From an uncultured Flavobacteriaceae bacterium (GTDB taxonomy: Bacteria > Bacteroidota > Bacteroidia > Flavobacteriales > Flavobacteriaceae), in assembly GCA_947493535.1 (NCBI GenBank), contig CANLRK010000003.1:124001-188000 (forward strand): DNA of 64,000 nt. The letters run 5' to 3'. How positions within the stretch are numbered: the stretch's first letter is position 1; every line of letters begins with the position of its first letter. Below the pieces are notes generated by a model. It did no database searches. It worked only from the letters and a program-made list of their open reading frames with translations, and was not told where the DNA came from. The position numbers were made by a program, and so were the translations under genes. This document shows, piece after piece, positions 33,268 to 63,235 of this stretch.

Positions 33268-33341
33268 GCCGATGTAGCTCAGCTGGCTAGAGCAGCTGAT
33301 TTGTAATCAGCAGGTCGGGGGTTCGAGTCCCTTCATCGGCT
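33268..33341 (+). tRNA. tRNA-Thr (anticodon TGT)
   Basis: GCCGATG/CATCGGC acceptor stem, CTGATTTGTAATCAG anticodon arm, GGTTCGAGTCC T arm; 74 nt. Confidence 0.95.
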
Positions 33342-33381
33342 CAGTAAAATAAAGGTTCTTTGAATATAATGAAGAATTTTA

Positions 33382-33464
33382 GGGGAGATTCCAGAGCGGC
33401 CAAATGGGACGGACTGTAACTCCGTTGTCTTTCGACTTCGCAGGTTCGAATCCTGCTCTCCCCA
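33382..33464 (+). tRNA. tRNA-Tyr (anticodon GTA), long variable arm
   Basis: GGGGAGA/TCTCCCC acceptor, GGACTGTAACTCC anticodon arm, class II variable arm. Confidence 0.93.
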
Positions 33465-33477
33465 CAAATAAAAGAAT

Positions 33478-33550
33478 GCGAGAGTAGCTCAGTTGGTAGA
33501 GCGTCAGCCTTCCAAGCTGAATGTCGCCGGTTCGAACCCGGTCTCTCGCT
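33478..33550 (+). tRNA. tRNA-Gly (anticodon TCC)
   Basis: GCGAGAG/CTCTCGC acceptor, TCAGCCTTCCAAGCTGA anticodon arm. Confidence 0.95.
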
Positions 33551-33622
33551 CAAAAATTTCTTTATCACATGATATTGAAATTGGTTTTTTCTGGTTATGT
33601 TTGCATAGCCGGAAGGGAATAC

Positions 33623-33695
33623 GCCGGTGTAGCTCAGTTGGTAGAGCGCATCCTTGGTAGGGATGAGGTCACGGGTTCAAGTCCCGTCATTGGCT
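33623..33695 (+). tRNA. tRNA-Thr (anticodon GGT)
   Basis: GCCGGTG/CATTGGC acceptor (two G-U pairs), CATCCTTGGTAGGGATG anticodon arm. Confidence 0.93.
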
Positions 33696-35025: not shown

Positions 35026-35098
35026 ACGGGTTTAGCTCAGTTGGTAGAGCACTGGTCTCCAAAACCAGGTGTCGTGAGTTCGAGTCTCTCAACCCGTG
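35026..35098 (+). tRNA. tRNA-Trp (anticodon CCA)
   Basis: ACGGGTT/AACCCGT acceptor, CTGGTCTCCAAAACCAG anticodon arm. Confidence 0.95.
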
Positions 35099-50948: not shown

Positions 50949-51278
50949 ATGAAAAATTTAACAATAGACGAGTGGAAGTCACAATTATTATCAGATAGTA
51001 ATGCTATAGTGTTAGATGTAAGAACCACAGATGAAATAGAGGAAGGAGTTATACCTAACGCAATACATGCTGATGTAAAGCAACCACAATTATTTTTAGA
51101 TACTGTAAATGCTTTAGATAAAACAAAAAATTATTACGTATACTGCCAATCTGGTGCAAGGAGCCTAGAAGCCTGTGCAGTATTAAATTTATTGTGTAAT
51201 ATTACTGAAGCTTATAGTCTTACAGGTGGATTTTCCGTTTGGGATGGTGAAGTAGAGGTAGTATCAATTTTAAATTAA
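50949..51278 (+). CDS. Rhodanese-like domain-containing protein
   Basis: AIVLDVRTTDEIEEGVIPNAIHAD; YYVYCQSGARSLEAC. Confidence 0.88.
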   Translation: MKNLTIDEWKSQLLSDSNAIVLDVRTTDEIEEGVIPNAIHADVKQPQLFLDTVNALDKTKNYYVYCQSGARSLEACAVLNLLCNITEAYSLTGGFSVWDGEVEVVSILN

Positions 51279-51285
51279 TTAAATT

Positions 51286-51645
51286 ATGAAAAGTGTTTTT
51301 TTAGCTATAGTATGTTTTTTGTTTTCTTGCACTGAGCAAAAAACACCTAAGATATTAGTATTAGAGCCAACTGCTTTTGAACAAAAAATAGCAGAAGAAA
51401 ATGTACAATTAGTAGATGTGCGAACAGAGAGCGAATGGAATGAAGGAATTATAGAAGGTGCTCTGCTAATTGATTTTTTACAAGATGATTTTGCTACAAA
51501 AGTAGAGGAGTTAGATAAAAGTAAACCCATTGCGGTGTATTGTAGGAGTGGAGGAAGAAGTGGTAAAGCTTCTAAGTTATTAAAAGATTTAGGGTTTAAT
51601 GAAATTTACGACTTAAAAGGAGGGTATTTAAATTGGAATAAATAA
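51286..51645 (+). CDS. Rhodanese-like domain lipoprotein
   Basis: Lipobox CFLFSC; VQLVDVRTESEWNEGIIEGALLIDF; IAVYCRSGGRSGKASKLLKDLGF. Confidence 0.88.
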   Translation: MKSVFLAIVCFLFSCTEQKTPKILVLEPTAFEQKIAEENVQLVDVRTESEWNEGIIEGALLIDFLQDDFATKVEELDKSKPIAVYCRSGGRSGKASKLLKDLGFNEIYDLKGGYLNWNK

Positions 51646-53861: not shown

Positions 53862-53900
53862 ATAAAAAACAAGCCATTCTTTACAGAAGAATGGCTTGTT
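53862..53900 (-). terminator. Intrinsic terminator of the btuB-like/propeller transcription unit
   Basis: AACAAGCCATTCTT-acag-AAGAATGGCTTGTT, 14-bp stem, U-tract on minus strand. Confidence 0.8.
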
Positions 53901-53921: not shown

Positions 53922-55280
53922 TTAATTAAAATAAATACCATTAGGGACAATTCCAGTATTAATAGTTTGAATTGGAGTGTTATCCGTTAAATTAAAAATA
54001 GTCAGTGATCCGTTATTAATACTGTTGTCAATATCAAGAGTGTATAGTCTATCTTCATTAACAGAAATATCATTTGAAATAGTAGTAATAATAGGGGTAA
54101 CAGGTAGTGTGCTTTCTGTTTCGTCCAATGCATAAACAGCATCATTCAGGCTATAGTACAGTGTGCCATTACTATAAGTTAAATTGTTGGGGTGCTCGGT
54201 GGTGGCAAAATCAATAGTACTAAAAGTACCGTCAGCAATTGTATATAAAATCAATTTCCCTGATGTTTCCATACCACTAGTTGCAGGATTTCCTTCTGCT
54301 AAAATCCATAGGTTGTTAGCACTATCAATTACCATATCACTAAGCATATTTCCGGGTAGTGTTACTGTGCTCAAGCTATTATCTGCTGTATTGATAATAC
54401 TCAAGTTATTTACTGAACCACTATGAGCTATATAAATTTTTCCGTTTTTAGCAAGGATTTTTTCTGGTTTTTCATCAACTGCTATTGTTGTTTCAATAGT
54501 ATTGGTGCTTAAATCGATAACTGCAATAAAATCATCAGTAGAAATAGTTGTATCTCCCCAGTTTGTAACGTAGCCCTTAGTCCCAGAAGCAGCAAAATGA
54601 CGAGGAGTGTTAAGTGTTGTACTGATAGTAGATTCTTTTAAAAAAGAATTTCTATTTACAACTATTATTTGATTATCAATAGATGAAACCAGGTAAGCTT
54701 TTGTTCCGTTAAAACCAATAGATTGTAAGCCGCTTCCAATAATTTCAGTATTTACAGTATTGTAAATTTGTTGTTCAGTAACGGTAAAGTCATTATTTAC
54801 ATAGGTAATCGTACTTGTAGGGTTACCGTAATTACTTATTAAAACACTATTTTGAAAAGCATTACTTTCATCGTCAATAATAGTGATTGTTATTGTGTCA
54901 GAATCATCTATATATAGGTTTGAATTAGAAGCGCTAATAACTGTAAGAATAATATTCTCTTGGTCTTCAATGATGGTGTCATCAATTAAATCAATTGTTA
55001 ATGTTGCAGTAAGCTCGCCAGCAGGAATTGTAATATTTTGATTAGGAATGTTATAGTCTACAGCAACTTCTGAAGTTCCAGATAACTCAAAACTGATATT
55101 TATATCGTTAGCAAAGGTTTTAGCAATATGAAAGCTAATGGTTACAATTCCGTCAGCTTCATTAACAGTAGGTGTATCTGTATTAAGATAAAATGTATCT
55201 GGTTGGAAGTGCACGCCTTCATCATCTGTACATGAAAATAGTATAACGAAAAATAAAGATAGGTATAAAAGATGCTTCAT
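53922..55280 (-). CDS. Surface lipoprotein with Calx-beta-like N-terminus and YncE/DUF5074-like beta-propeller; candidate BtuG analogue
   Basis: Lipobox VILFSC followed by acidic TDDEG; TVNEADGIVTISFHIAKTF..DDTIIEDQENIILTVISASNSNLYIDDSDTITITIIDDE (Calx-beta); repeated propeller-like blades; downstream of btuB-like gene on the same strand. Confidence 0.7.
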   Translation of the reverse strand: MKHLLYLSLFFVILFSCTDDEGVHFQPDTFYLNTDTPTVNEADGIVTISFHIAKTFANDINISFELSGTSEVAVDYNIPNQNITIPAGELTATLTIDLIDDTIIEDQENIILTVISASNSNLYIDDSDTITITIIDDESNAFQNSVLISNYGNPTSTITYVNNDFTVTEQQIYNTVNTEIIGSGLQSIGFNGTKAYLVSSIDNQIIVVNRNSFLKESTISTTLNTPRHFAASGTKGYVTNWGDTTISTDDFIAVIDLSTNTIETTIAVDEKPEKILAKNGKIYIAHSGSVNNLSIINTADNSLSTVTLPGNMLSDMVIDSANNLWILAEGNPATSGMETSGKLILYTIADGTFSTIDFATTEHPNNLTYSNGTLYYSLNDAVYALDETESTLPVTPIITTISNDISVNEDRLYTLDIDNSINNGSLTIFNLTDNTPIQTINTGIVPNGIYFN

Positions 55281-55346
55281 TTAATATGTTTTTAGTGATA
55301 AATAACCACTTAAAGAAATGTAAATGTACGCTATTTTAAATAAAAA

Positions 55347-55374
55347 GAAAAGACTGCCATTTGCAGCCTTTTTT
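55347..55374. terminator. Weak terminator-like hairpin between btuB-like and propeller lipoprotein genes
   Basis: AAAAGACTGCCATTTGCAGCCTTTTTT; short stem with one mismatch. Confidence 0.4.
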
Positions 55375-55399
55375 AGTATAGGATAAAATAATAAAACAC

Positions 55400-57340
55400 T
55401 TAAAAATTTAATTTTAACCCTAATCTGTAATTTCTTCCTAAAGTAGAAGCGCCTTGTATTTCTGTATAATCTTCATCAAAAATATTTAACAGAGTCCCAA
55501 ATATTTCTAAGTTATTAGTAAGCTGATGGTTTGCAAAAAAGTTCACCAAATTGTAAGCGTCAACTGTGTCGCCTCCATAAATAAAACGATGGTCTACAAA
55601 TTGGTAGGCAAAGGATAAGTTTGTTTTTTGGTTATAGTTATAGGCAAGCATAGCATTAACCTTGTGTTTAGGAACATTTAAACTCAATGCATCTTCTTCA
55701 AATTGTGTAAAGGTGTAGTTAGCGTTTAACGTTAATGATTTATGAACTGTAACATTGGTTTCAAGTTCTACTCCTTGTGTTTTTACATTATCATCTACAT
55801 TGTAATAAACACCGCCAATCCACCAACCAGATACGCTATCGTAAATATTCAAAAAATCTATTTTATTTTGATCTTCTCTATGAAATACAACTGTACTAAA
55901 TCGATGTTTTTTGTTGTAGTTTAATTCAAAACCGGCTTCACCATTTAAACTTTCTTGAGCATCTAAATCCTTAAATCCGTAATCTGGTGAATATTGTTGG
56001 TAAATAGTAGGTGCAATAAAAGCAGTACTACCGGTAGCGAAAACCTTAGCTTTTAACTTTTCTGTAGCAGTAAAATTATAAGAAGGGTTTATGCTATATA
56101 CAAAATGACTACCAAAGTTGGTGTGATTTGTCATACGAACTCCAGCGTTTACCGTTAAACCAAAATTAGAAAAGTAGGTGAAATTAGCATAAGGATCAAC
56201 AAGGTTGATTTTAGTATTGTCTTTTTCATAATCAGAAACTAAAGTTGTACTCCCGAAAGTAGTGCTAGCCTGCGTTGCTTTTTGTTCTTGAAAATTTATT
56301 CCTATAACTGCCCAAAAGTTTTTATTGAATTTGTATTTGTTGTATAAATCTATAACAATAGAGTTACTAGCGTAGGTTCTTTTTGAACTATCATTTTTAT
56401 TGATTCTATCGGTTTTTGCAATAGATGAATTTAAAACAATACTTCCTTTATTGTATTGGTATGTAGAGGTAATACCATATTGAATATTTTCTGAGTTAGC
56501 TTCATTAAAGCCGTCAGGAGTACCAAAGGAATTATCGTATTGATTTTTAAAATGATTATAGTTCATGTAAGTCCCTAAGTTAAAAGTGTCAGAAAAATGA
56601 TACCCCAATCGGATATTTGCATTTTCTCTTTCAAAAGGATCGTCTTCAAAAACCAATGTGTTATTGGAAGGTCTTGCTGCTGACATGCCTTTTGTGTTTT
56701 CTGTAGAAGCGCCTAAAAAATACGTAAACTTATTAAGTGTACCATTAACGTTTGCGCCTAAGGTAGCGGTGTTTAATTTGTACTTATTGGTTATTACAGA
56801 ACGGTTACTTCCGGCACTCATAATAACATTGGTGTTAGCTTTTTTGTCAAGTGCTTTTTTAGTGGTAATGTTAATAACCCCAGTAGTTGCCCCAGTACCA
56901 TATAAGGTGCTTACACCTCCTTTAATGATTTCTATACTTTTTACGGTGTTGGCGTCTAAAGAACGTAAATCAAATTCACCATTAATGTTTGAAGGGTCAT
57001 TAACTTGAACACCATCAATGAGAATAACAACTTGAAAGTTATTACCTCCTCTTACTCGGTACCCTAAAACAGTACCTGCATTACTTTTCGCACCTGTCAC
57101 TTCAATACCAGAAATTGTATTAATGGTTTGTGCTAAACTTTGCCCTTTAACTTTAGCTAAATCTTCTTCTGAAATTTTGTAGATAACTTTCCCTGATTTT
57201 TCTCTGTTCAGTTTAAACTTTGTGTCTAATACTACTGTTTCTAGTTGTTCAACTGTAGCACTGTCTTGTTGTTTTTCTTGGGCATTTACAGTACATGCCA
57301 AGAAAGCCATACCTAAAAGGCTAAGCACTCTTTTGTTCAT
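55400..57340 (-). CDS. btuB: TonB-dependent receptor, BtuB-like (cobalamin)
   Basis: Plug VKGQSLAQTINTISGIEVTGAKSNAGTVLGYRVRGGNNFQVVILIDGVQVNDPSNINGEFDLRSLDANTVKSIEIIKGGVSTLYGTGATTGVINITTKK; C-terminal NYRLGLKLNF; preceded by cobalamin riboswitch. Confidence 0.85.
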   Translation of the reverse strand: MNKRVLSLLGMAFLACTVNAQEKQQDSATVEQLETVVLDTKFKLNREKSGKVIYKISEEDLAKVKGQSLAQTINTISGIEVTGAKSNAGTVLGYRVRGGNNFQVVILIDGVQVNDPSNINGEFDLRSLDANTVKSIEIIKGGVSTLYGTGATTGVINITTKKALDKKANTNVIMSAGSNRSVITNKYKLNTATLGANVNGTLNKFTYFLGASTENTKGMSAARPSNNTLVFEDDPFERENANIRLGYHFSDTFNLGTYMNYNHFKNQYDNSFGTPDGFNEANSENIQYGITSTYQYNKGSIVLNSSIAKTDRINKNDSSKRTYASNSIVIDLYNKYKFNKNFWAVIGINFQEQKATQASTTFGSTTLVSDYEKDNTKINLVDPYANFTYFSNFGLTVNAGVRMTNHTNFGSHFVYSINPSYNFTATEKLKAKVFATGSTAFIAPTIYQQYSPDYGFKDLDAQESLNGEAGFELNYNKKHRFSTVVFHREDQNKIDFLNIYDSVSGWWIGGVYYNVDDNVKTQGVELETNVTVHKSLTLNANYTFTQFEEDALSLNVPKHKVNAMLAYNYNQKTNLSFAYQFVDHRFIYGGDTVDAYNLVNFFANHQLTNNLEIFGTLLNIFDEDYTEIQGASTLGRNYRLGLKLNF

Positions 57341-57424
57341 TGTCAATAAATTTAATTTCAATACTAATTTGAGTACAGTTACGTTTATGCTTCTATTCCC
57401 GGAAGTGTAAACATTGTACAGAAA

Positions 57425-57605
57425 ATGGCAGGTCTCCTGACTTACTTGTTGTTACGTACCTTCCCGCCAATATTTTTTTGGCAGTGGTTTTTGAAAGCGT
57501 AACACATGGCATCAATAGCCAAAGCATACAGTTGCGGGTACAGTTTAGGACTTACACCTAATTCCCTTTAATTAATACTAAAGTGATTAGTATTAAAACC
57601 AAATT
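57425..57605 (-). promoter_or_regulatory. Cobalamin (B12) riboswitch
   Basis: Minus strand reads AAAGGGAATTAGGTGTAAGTCCTAAACTGTACCCGCAACTG ... AACCACTGCCA..TGGCGGGAAGGTA ... AGTCAGGAGACCTGCC, the conserved B12-element core. Confidence 0.95.
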
Positions 57606-57675
57606 CGGCACGAATATACGTTGTTTTGTAGGTTTAAAGCAACACTTTTTTTAAATATGTTTTCAGAAACACTTT

Positions 57676-59400: not shown

Positions 59401-60129
59401 ATGTTGAATAAAGCGGTTTTTAATTGGAGTGGAGGGAAAGATAGCGCCTTAGCGTTGCACTATATACAGCAACAAAAAGAATTTGAAATTCGCACCTTAC
59501 TAACTTCAATTAATGATACTTATAATAGGATTTCTATGCATGGTGTACGTGCCGAGTTACTACATAATCAAGCAAGTGCTCTAGAAATACCACTTACTGA
59601 GTTGCGTTTACCAGAAAACCCAACAATGGAGGAGTACAATGTTTTGTTATCAGAATTAAATGCCGACTTAAAATTGCAAGGTATTACACATAGTATTTTT
59701 GGTGATATTTTTTTAGAAGATTTAAGGAAGTATCGTGAAGAACAATTGACTAAAGTTGGTATAAAGGCTCATTTTCCTTTATGGAAAAGAAATACAAAGG
59801 AGTTGATACATGAGTTTATTGATTTAGGTTTTAAAACAATTGTGGTATGTACTAAAGCTGAATTGTTAGGGAAAGATTTTGTTGGTGAAGTAATTACGAA
59901 AGATTTTTTAAAAGAACTACCTAAAAATGTAGACCCTTGTGGTGAAAATGGCGAGTTTCATACCTTTGTTTATGACGGGCCAATATTTAAGAAAGCTATA
60001 AGTTTTACAGTAGGCGATAAAATATATCGCACTTATGAGGCACCAAAGAAAAAAGAAGATGCTTGCTTTTCAACTACATCAACACTGAAAGAAATAGGGT
60101 TTCACTTTTGTGATTTAGTACCAAAATAA
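59401..60129 (+). CDS. DPH6-like (diphthine--ammonia ligase-related) PP-loop ATP pyrophosphatase
   Basis: FNWSGGKDSALALHYIQ (PP-loop SGGKDS); MHGVRAELLHNQASALEIPL; FGDIFLEDLRKYREEQLTKVGIKAHFPLWKRNTKEL; DPCGENGEFHTFVYDGPIF. Confidence 0.9.
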   Translation: MLNKAVFNWSGGKDSALALHYIQQQKEFEIRTLLTSINDTYNRISMHGVRAELLHNQASALEIPLTELRLPENPTMEEYNVLLSELNADLKLQGITHSIFGDIFLEDLRKYREEQLTKVGIKAHFPLWKRNTKELIHEFIDLGFKTIVVCTKAELLGKDFVGEVITKDFLKELPKNVDPCGENGEFHTFVYDGPIFKKAISFTVGDKIYRTYEAPKKKEDACFSTTSTLKEIGFHFCDLVPK

Positions 60130-60138
60130 ATAAAAACA

Positions 60139-61275
60139 ATGTTTAAAAAAATAAGCATAATAGTATTAGTTGCTTTCATATTTGTAGCATGTAAAAAACA
60201 AAACCAGGTAGAAAATCACGAAATTCAACACGGTGTTGAATTTTCTACAACATACGCTACAGGGTTTAAAGTTGTTAATTATAATAGCTATACCACGATT
60301 CATATAAAATCACCTTGGCCAAATTCCGATAAAAGCTTCACTTATTTATTAGTTGATAAAGGCAAAAATGTACCTGAACATATAGCACATGATGCATTGA
60401 TTCATGTGCCTGTTGAAAAAGTAATAGTTACTTCTACCACACATATTCCAATATTAGAAGCTTTAAATGAATTGGATAAATTAGTGGGTTTTCCGAATAC
60501 AAATTTTATTTCATCAGAAAAGGCAAGAGATCGTATAGGAAAAGGTATAATAAAAGAACTTGGAGAAAATGAAGCTCTAAATACGGAGCTAGTATTAGAT
60601 TTAGAGCCAGATGTAGTAATTGGTTTTGCTATTAACGGAAATAATAAAACATTTAATACATTACAAAAATCAGGTATACCTGTGGTTTACGATGCAGCAT
60701 GGATAGAAAAACATGCCTTGGGAAGAGCAGAGTGGATTAAATTTTTTGGATGCTTATTTAAAAAAGAAGAAAAAGCCAACCAGGTATTTAATCAAATAGT
60801 AAGTAATTATGCAATAGCAAAAAATAGTGTTGCTGATATAGTTGATAAACCATCAGTATTGGCAGGATCGATGTTTAAAGATATTTGGCATGTGCCTTAC
60901 GGGAATTCTTGGGCAGCTCAATTTATAGCTGATGCTGGAGGAAATTACCTTTGGGGCAATACCTTAGGGTCAGGAAGCATAGCCTTAAATATTGAATCGG
61001 TACTAACCAAAGGGAAACAAGCTGATTTTTGGTTTACTTTAGGAAGTGCAACTACAAAACAAGAATTTAAGGAAGGTAATAAACATTACATACAATTTGA
61101 TGCTTTTATAAATAATAACGTATATATAGCAAACAAAAAAGGAGCAACAGGAGGATTATTTTTTTATGAGCTGGGACCTAATAGACCTGATTTAATTTTA
61201 AAAGATTTAATTAAAATTATGCACCCCGATAGGTTGCCTAACCATGAGTTGTTTTTTTATCAACAGTTACAATAG
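60139..61275 (+). CDS. ABC transporter substrate-binding lipoprotein, BtuF-like
   Basis: Lipobox FVACKKQ; KVIVTSTTHIPILEALNELDKLVGFPN; LDLEPDVVIGFAINGN; LAGSMFKDIWHVPYGNSWAAQFIADAGGNYLW. Confidence 0.85.
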   Translation: MFKKISIIVLVAFIFVACKKQNQVENHEIQHGVEFSTTYATGFKVVNYNSYTTIHIKSPWPNSDKSFTYLLVDKGKNVPEHIAHDALIHVPVEKVIVTSTTHIPILEALNELDKLVGFPNTNFISSEKARDRIGKGIIKELGENEALNTELVLDLEPDVVIGFAINGNNKTFNTLQKSGIPVVYDAAWIEKHALGRAEWIKFFGCLFKKEEKANQVFNQIVSNYAIAKNSVADIVDKPSVLAGSMFKDIWHVPYGNSWAAQFIADAGGNYLWGNTLGSGSIALNIESVLTKGKQADFWFTLGSATTKQEFKEGNKHYIQFDAFINNNVYIANKKGATGGLFFYELGPNRPDLILKDLIKIMHPDRLPNHELFFYQQLQ

Positions 61276-61408: not shown

Positions 61409-62440
61409 TTGGAAAACAAAAAATCATATTCATTAATACTTGTACTACTTATAGTTGTTACCTTATTTTTTGTGTTTTTAAACATTAGTTTAGGGTCTGT
61501 TCATATTCCTTTTTCAGAGGTGATAGGTGTGATGCTTGACACTACTGAAGTAAAACAATCTTGGGAATATATTATTTTAAATTATAGGTTGCCTAAAGCA
61601 ATTACAGCTGTAATTGTAGGATCAGGCTTAGGGATTTCTGGGCTGCTAATGCAAACATTATTTCGTAACCCTTTAGCTGGACCATATGTATTAGGCTTAA
61701 GTTCAGGGGCTAGCTTAGGTGTTGCAACTGTGGTGCTAGGAGCTTCCTTTTTTTCGGCTACTTTTGCTTCGTTATTAATAAGTCAATGGAGTTTGGTTAT
61801 TGCGGCTAGTATTGGTAGTTTTTTGGTACTACTAGCCGTAGTTATTGTAAGTTCTCGAGTTAAAGATACTATGGCTATATTGATAATTGGGTTAATGTTT
61901 GCTAGTGTTTCGGCAGCTATTGTAAGTGTATTATCATACTTTTCTTCCGCAGAACAATTACAACGATATATTTTTTGGAGCTTTGGTAGCCTAGGTAATT
62001 TAGCTTGGGAAGAGTTGTTTGTTTTAATATTGTTATTTGGTTTGGGGGTATTAGCTACTATTATATCTATTAAACCATTAAATGCCTTATTGTTGGGGGA
62101 CAACTATGCTAGTAGTTTGGGGGTAAACTTAAAAAAATCTCGATTTATAATTATACTAGCTACAAGTTTTTTTGCTGGAAGTATAACAGCATTTGCTGGG
62201 CCAATTGCTTTTATTGGTTTAGCTGTGCCGCACTTAACAAAATTATTATTTAACACCTCTAACCATAAAATTCTATTGCCCGCAGTAGCACTTTCTGGAG
62301 CAATATTGATGTTGTTTTGTGATAGTGTTTCTCAATTACCCATGAGTGAATATACCTTGCCAATTAATGCAGTAACGTCTTTAGTAGGAGCACCAGTGGT
62401 AATATGGTTGTTGGTACGTAAAAAGAAACTGTTTGTGTAA
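61409..62440 (+). CDS. FecCD/BtuC-like iron-siderophore/cobalamin ABC transporter permease
   Basis: LNYRLPKAITAVIVGSGLGISGLLMQTLFRNPLAGPYVLGLSSGASLG; FAGPIAFIGLAVPHLTKLLF; TTG start. Confidence 0.9.
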   Translation: MENKKSYSLILVLLIVVTLFFVFLNISLGSVHIPFSEVIGVMLDTTEVKQSWEYIILNYRLPKAITAVIVGSGLGISGLLMQTLFRNPLAGPYVLGLSSGASLGVATVVLGASFFSATFASLLISQWSLVIAASIGSFLVLLAVVIVSSRVKDTMAILIIGLMFASVSAAIVSVLSYFSSAEQLQRYIFWSFGSLGNLAWEELFVLILLFGLGVLATIISIKPLNALLLGDNYASSLGVNLKKSRFIIILATSFFAGSITAFAGPIAFIGLAVPHLTKLLFNTSNHKILLPAVALSGAILMLFCDSVSQLPMSEYTLPINAVTSLVGAPVVIWLLVRKKKLFV

Positions 62441-62443
62441 CTT

Positions 62444-63235
62444 ATGAAGAAAAAAAATATCAATACAGTTTTAGAAGTAAAAAACTTAGCAATTGGTTAT
62501 CAAACTAAAAAGAAAGAAATACGCGTTGCTGAAAAAATCAATTTTGCACTAAAACAAGGTGAGTTGGTAGGGTTAATTGGTGCTAATGGTATAGGGAAAT
62601 CAACATTATTAAAAACAATAACTAATGCAGAGAAGTGTTTGGAAGGAGATGTGTATATTAATAATGAATCACTAAATTCTATAACAAGTATTAATCTAGC
62701 GAAAGAAATTAGTGTCGTGTTGACCGATAATATTTCACATACAAATTTATCGGTACAAGAACTTATTGCTTTAGGGAGACAGCCATATACCAATTGGATA
62801 GGCACACTTACTGAAGCCGATAAATTAAAAACCAAAGAAGCAATAGCGGCAATTCAAATTACTGATTTAGTAGATAAAAAATGCTATGAGTTAAGTGATG
62901 GGCAATTACAAAAAGTAATGCTAGCTAGGGCATTGGCACAGGATACAGCTATAATTGTATTAGATGAACCTACTACGCATTTAGATTTGTACCATAAAGT
63001 ATCGGTACTTAAATTATTGCAAAAGTTAGCTAAGGAAACTCAAAAAACAATTTTATTTTCAACACACGAAATAAATGTAACCCTATCACTTTGCGATAAA
63101 ATTATTTTAATGAAAGAAAACCAAACTTATTTTGGTACACCAAAAGAGTTAATAGCTCAGCAGGCATTTGATAAACTATTCCCTGATGATTTGGTCTTTT
63201 TTGATGAGTTGAGCGGTGCTTTTAAAATAAAATAG
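62444..63235 (+). CDS. ABC transporter ATP-binding protein, BtuD/FecE-like
   Basis: GLIGANGIGKSTLLKTITN (Walker A), LSDGQLQKVMLARALAQDTAIIVLDEPTTHLDL (signature, Walker B). Confidence 0.93.
   Translation: MKKKNINTVLEVKNLAIGYQTKKKEIRVAEKINFALKQGELVGLIGANGIGKSTLLKTITNAEKCLEGDVYINNESLNSITSINLAKEISVVLTDNISHTNLSVQELIALGRQPYTNWIGTLTEADKLKTKEAIAAIQITDLVDKKCYELSDGQLQKVMLARALAQDTAIIVLDEPTTHLDLYHKVSVLKLLQKLAKETQKTILFSTHEINVTLSLCDKIILMKENQTYFGTPKELIAQQAFDKLFPDDLVFFDELSGAFKIK

Follow-up and report, generated by a model that had tools for sequence, protein, structure and literature searches.

A lipoprotein encoded beside a cobalamin (B12) riboswitch and its receptor gene in an uncultured marine Flavobacteriaceae bacterium is probably an orphaned BtuG homologue, standing next to a swapped receptor, stripped of canonical B12 capture and kept for another role at the cell surface. 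The genes lie in a 64,000-nucleotide stretch of DNA, the whole of which we call the window. Five observations carry this reading: the homology to BtuG, the type of the receptor, a conserved hairpin between the two genes, the loss of pocket residues and the maintenance of the gene. That a BtuG without a B12 pocket has been re-partnered with a type of receptor that does not need BtuG we put forward more tentatively, at somewhat short of an even chance.

A BtuG homologue at a cobalamin uptake locus

The only cobalamin riboswitch in the genome, at 57410..57618 on the minus strand, is a full-length match to the RF00174 aptamer (cmscan 96.4 bits against a gathering threshold of 31.5; E 8.7e-23; model positions 1-189). 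Behind it follow, in order of transcription, a TonB-dependent receptor gene, a 119-bp gap and, on the same strand as this btuB, the gene for a 452-aa lipoprotein. A canonical cobalamin riboswitch ahead of the receptor gene had been recognised in a sequence-only reading, and the match bears it out; the same reading missed the hairpin in the gap and, on the plus strand, the btuF-like (60139-61275; Peripla_BP_2), btuC-like (61409-62440; FecCD, with an NCBIfam BtuC match at E 7e-62, below cut-off) and btuD-like (62444-63235; ABC_tran) genes that belong to the same uptake locus.

A Dph6-like ATP pyrophosphatase gene (Diphthami_syn_2; 59401-60129, plus strand) adjoins the btuF/C/D-like genes, the four lying 2-6 kb to the right of the minus-strand unit. 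Such a gene also adjoins seven other B12 uptake loci (L042, L045, L047, L050, L052, L058 and L060), with receptors of both types described below, and could be an unrecognised corrinoid gene. At two loci (L054, L061) a second cobalamin riboswitch precedes corrinoid-biosynthesis-like genes; at L061, in the related genome G002, a TonB receptor with a carboxypeptidase-like domain lies between them. The window genome uses B12, since it encodes methylmalonyl-CoA mutase and IcmF; a search of the genome for the MetH activation and MetE N-terminal domains found neither. Elsewhere, the window contains a cluster of five tRNA genes (33268-33695 and 35026-35098) and a neighbouring pair of rhodanese-like open reading frames (50949-51645), the second with a lipoprotein-like signal.

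The lipoprotein (53922..55280, minus strand) has three parts. Its signal peptide (55230..55280) carries a lipobox, ..ILFSC, whose Cys17 is invariant among relatives and is followed by an acidic TDDEG, supporting export as a surface lipoprotein. A Calx-beta domain (aa 27-137; 54870..55202) scores 31.2 bits against PF03160, where the gathering threshold is 27. The remainder (aa 150-452; 53925..54833) is a seven-blade DUF5074/BtuG propeller, with PF16819 above gathering at aa 150-360. All three parts had been read correctly from the sequence, and an AlphaFold2 model built from 37 sequences (the window's and those of other fetched loci) agrees, predicting the propeller with a mean pLDDT of 92.

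Kinship with BtuG, also proposed in the sequence-only reading, holds. The first 15 Foldseek matches of the model are all BtuG (best TMt 0.86, rmsd 2.1; 0.78-0.86 for propeller-only BtuG chains), and phmmer against the PDB places BtuG chains first (8puj, 8okv, 8p97; E 5e-6). A profile made from 20 relatives reaches E 4e-61 with BtuG3 (8p97) and 3e-59 with BtuG2 (8bmx) over the full propeller; with BtuK1 (9s6c), the other B12 propeller, it reaches 3.5e-16. Profiles and predicted fold thus indicate that the window propeller descends from BtuG.

A receptor type normally found without BtuG

The receptor gene (55400..57340, minus strand) occupies an open reading frame of 55400-57361, in which the ATG at 57340 is the probable start because the G002 homologue begins alike. 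Its product has a TonB plug (PF07715), and its best NCBIfam match is TIGR01779, TonB-B12 (E 4e-54), at 184 bits against a cut-off of 599.7, so that it misses the equivalog threshold; its context is that of a functional BtuB, with the riboswitch directly upstream and btuF, btuC and btuD homologues in the locus. The description of the receptor as BtuB-like therefore stands, but it is not the type of BtuB that partners BtuG. Flavobacterial receptors of that type, which we call type A, are closest in the PDB to BtuB2, BtuB3 and BtuB1 of Bacteroides thetaiotaomicron (E 9e-45), whereas the window receptor scores 608 bits with a profile of the second type, type B, and 75 bits with that of type A. Its closest PDB entries are Cir and BtuB of Escherichia coli, and no Bacteroides BtuB is among its matches at E 1e-3.

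Among 250 Flavobacteriaceae genomes, 226 have a cobalamin riboswitch and 78 a BtuG propeller match; where both are listed, BtuG lies directly downstream of the riboswitch in at least 41 of 54, typically at a spacing of about 2 kb, or one receptor gene. The expected tie between homologues of the lipoprotein and btuB or B12 riboswitches was thus found, with type-A partners. In a table compiled from 80 loci and further ones, with riboswitches located by an nhmmer profile, duplicates included, and restricted to BtuGs with a recognised receptor immediately upstream, all 113 pairs outside the window genus have a type-A receptor; the gap is -4 to 22 bp in 110 of them, the other three being second BtuG copies further downstream. 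Pairing with type B occurs in the window genus alone, across gaps of 119, 136 and 141 bp.

The same split appears between genomes. Over 120 genomes, BtuG is present in 2 of the 70 with a type-B receptor and in 34 of the 50 without one (p 2e-15, which overstates independence because the genomes are related, although the split is still almost complete), and both exceptions belong to the window genus: the window genome and G002. The same hybrid arrangement is found on a short contig of G003, so that hybrids are known from three species, two of them metagenome-assembled. Solo type-B receptors occupy the same kind of riboswitch locus without BtuG (about 21 such loci were read). An alignment search for a full BtuG elsewhere in 21 solo genomes yielded only partial propeller matches and one remnant, and we rejected a divergent BtuG hidden in these genomes.

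The remnant lies in G060, where a type-B btuB and an unrelated gene precede the C-terminal ~130 aa of a BtuG with no intact N-terminal part (locus L154, contig G060:C3, 3918-5753). By its sequence this would be a second case of orphaning, with BtuG in decay; since only this fragment is left beside the type-B receptor, decay is the other possible outcome. Other loci depart from the usual arrangement in other ways. A 431-aa BtuG of G006 (L041 4312-5607) carries a PKD/Ig-like insert between anchor and propeller and has an intact pocket and a type-A BtuB, while second, tandem BtuG-like propellers of 430-657 aa are found at L037 5494-7467, L038 4513-5805 and L116 6087-7379; the second copies of L037 and L038 lack the lipobox, having instead a plain signal peptide together with an extension at the C-terminus, and may be secreted.

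A fourth member of the window genus, G001, encodes a BtuG that lacks Calx-beta and has its pocket intact; in the propeller tree G001 and the three hybrids are sisters. Of the contig, 97 bases remain upstream of this BtuG, and their translation shows RPMPNRN-type residues, as is typical at the C-terminus of a type-A BtuB. In the receptor tree (the G003 N-terminal fragment disregarded), hybrid receptors branch beside the sampled solo receptors and not inside them, and no donor was identified for this reason. Many related flavobacteria have a riboswitch that controls closely spaced genes for a Bacteroides-type BtuB and for BtuG, the latter acting as its lid if B. thetaiotaomicron is a guide. In the window genus a solo-type BtuB, with a terminator behind it, is found instead at such a locus, and the BtuG homologue is still there. 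We infer a receptor swap.

The gap between the two hybrid genes contains an intrinsic-terminator-like hairpin (55348..55372, minus strand) of 10 pairs followed by CTTTTTATTT. Each of the three hybrid gaps has a 10-bp hairpin and a T-rich tail; none of the 10 pairs is broken in any of the three species, and four of them have changed on both sides, in compensatory fashion. This covariation was matched by 9 of 500 shuffles and by no slid version, a modest statistic from three sequences, and the hairpin looks like a selected terminator. Downstream is a conserved block, AAAATAGCGTACATTTACATTTC in the window (approximately 55313..55337, minus strand) and ATAGC(G/T)TACATTTACA(T/C)TT in the hybrids, which resembles the Bacteroidota -7 box TAnnTTTG and may function as a promoter; sigma-70 promoter matches showed no excess over the shuffled expectation. 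A strong bidirectional terminator-like hairpin (53868..53900; terminator scan) follows btuG.

In the proposed riboswitch-controlled unit of receptor and lipoprotein, the riboswitch stands ahead of the receptor gene. Its control over the lipoprotein gene is doubtful, with the conserved, covarying terminator lying between this gene and btuB in all three hybrid species. Given the terminator and the promoter-like block, the riboswitch may control the receptor alone, and read-through could still bring btuG partly under its control.

Pocket residues, Calx-beta domain and selection

As Abellon-Ruiz et al. describe BtuG2 in the main text of PMC10404256, the Asn54-Thr64 loop and the blade-5 loop hold B12 like pliers, Trp194, Trp272 and Tyr316 narrow the cavity, Tyr239 lies in the blade-5 loop and Tyr335 contacts the adenosyl ligand. 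From these main-text residues we scored the seven features conserved in flavobacteria (E55, G56 and an aromatic residue at 58, 194, 239, 316 and 335), a set that leaves out 13 hydrogen-bonding residues. Read from sequence, 91 of 112 other BtuGs have all seven, 16 have six and 5 have five. The window protein has one, with Y, G, a gap, V, T, N and S at these positions; G002 has two, and of the five positions covered in G003 one is kept.

To judge from these main-text positions, the propeller has lost its canonical B12 pocket almost entirely. Plain divergence does not account for this, because BtuGs at a greater overall distance retain 5-6 features, and at other columns conserved in at least 90% of sequences the window protein keeps 26 of 34 residues against 1 of 7 in the pocket (Fisher p 0.004). 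N54, G56, Q93 and H272 are kept; N107 and S109, which are conserved also in BtuG2, have changed too. High-affinity B12 capture would have gone with the loop and the aromatic residues that clamp the vitamin in known BtuGs. The proposed B12 capture lipoprotein under riboswitch control thus finds no support in its residues (1/7 pocket features), its receptor (type B) or its transcript architecture (the terminator).

A working flavobacterial BtuG, one that captures B12 at the surface for delivery to the adjacent receptor and uses Calx-beta as a stalk, would fit the homology and fold, the neighbouring B12-riboswitch receptor, the purifying selection on the gene and a genome that needs B12 for methylmalonyl-CoA mutase and IcmF. 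With six of the seven pocket features gone, a receptor of the BtuG-less type and a terminator ahead of btuG, we consider it unlikely. Less likely still is a pocket remodelled to bind another cobamide or small ligand and pass it to the new receptor: the changes are alike in kind in three divergent species, each with a shortened blade-1 loop, and outside the pocket the propeller is conserved and under purifying selection, but the substituted residues at 194, 239, 316 and 335 differ between the species, which looks more like relaxation than like a new conserved pocket.

The gene is maintained. Pairwise among the hybrids, dN is ~0.30-0.32 and dS 1.6-1.9, giving dN/dS ~0.16-0.2 (~0.16-0.19 for the window gene against its relatives), a rough figure because dS is near saturation. 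This substitution pattern indicates purifying selection, and unconstrained drift over such a distance would leave little alignment. The reading frame is intact both in the window and in G002, and likewise in G003 up to where its contig ends. That the gene is a relic heading for loss, as in G060, is consistent with the usual absence of BtuG from type-B genomes, with the G060 remnant and with the eroded pocket; against intact reading frames, a kept lipobox, a high-confidence fold and a dN/dS of ~0.2, which disfavours simple decay of the window BtuG, we regard it as very improbable. Because nearly all the vitamin-holding residues are lost, the lipoprotein of the window probably has another job.

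The Calx-beta domain follows the export signal and precedes the propeller; by eye, the window protein retains the acidic motifs VDY, IDDTIIEDQE and IDDE of this domain. In BtuG2 a linker at the anchor-propeller position acts as a hinge with the BtuB loops EL2 and EL11, according to PMC10404256. Calx-beta BtuGs occur in the window genus, a Maribacter-centred group, the Dokdonia lineage and Arcticiflavibacter, a distribution that takes four or more changes on a quick tree; a single origin was rejected (AU p 0.0003). We likewise rejected a dependence of pocket loss on Calx-beta, since in 27 other such BtuGs the domain is paired with 6-7 of the 7 pocket features and with type-A receptors. A putative hinge extension or stalk is plausible, and other BtuGs, with the pocket intact, also carry the domain at this site; among open-licence PMC papers we found no description of a flavobacterial BtuG or of its Calx-beta form. 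With orphaning as the preferred reading, the lipoprotein would now most likely serve as a lid or shield that binds weakly or not at all, held on a Calx-beta stalk.

Relation to known B12 uptake systems

BtuG has been presented as near-universal in the B12 loci of gut Bacteroidetes, and capture is the step of uptake ascribed to it. More than half of the sampled Flavobacteriaceae use a type of BtuB without BtuG, and the two systems exclude each other; one genus has a hybrid whose lid lost its pocket, which makes it testable whether the lid does more than bind substrate. A DUF5074 protein beside a B12 riboswitch is, moreover, insufficient for calling a B12 binder. If our reading is true, the window genus is a natural receptor-swap experiment, showing that a lid of the BtuG type can be kept for some purpose besides substrate capture, for instance to gate or shield the receptor.

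No surface lipoprotein takes part in the work of E. coli BtuB, which resembles the type-B receptor more than Bacteroides BtuB does; the window receptor differs from E. coli BtuB in being flavobacterial, in standing behind a riboswitch at a btuFCD-type locus and in having a BtuG homologue alongside. BtuB1-3 of B. thetaiotaomicron (8blw, 8bmx, 8p97) and the flavobacterial type-A BtuB are, like the window receptor, B12-riboswitch receptors at the same kind of locus; the window receptor, in contrast, is nearer to E. coli Cir and BtuB, and its PDB matches at E 1e-3 include no Bacteroides BtuB.

The Calx-beta BtuGs of Maribacter, Kriegella, Croceivirga and Dokdonia are likewise lipoproteins of B12 riboswitch loci with the domain at the same place; unlike the window protein, they keep the pocket (6-7/7), lie ~3 bp from a type-A BtuB and have separate placements in the tree. 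BtuG2 and BtuG3 of B. thetaiotaomicron (PMC6143338; PMC10404256) share with the window protein the seven-blade DUF5074-like propeller, the acidic export signal and a position beside a riboswitch-led btuB. The window protein differs from them in the Calx-beta domain between anchor and propeller, in lacking the blade-1 pliers loop and equivalents of Trp194, Tyr239, Tyr316 and Tyr335, and in its partner, a receptor of the other type, from whose gene btuG is cut off by a terminator.
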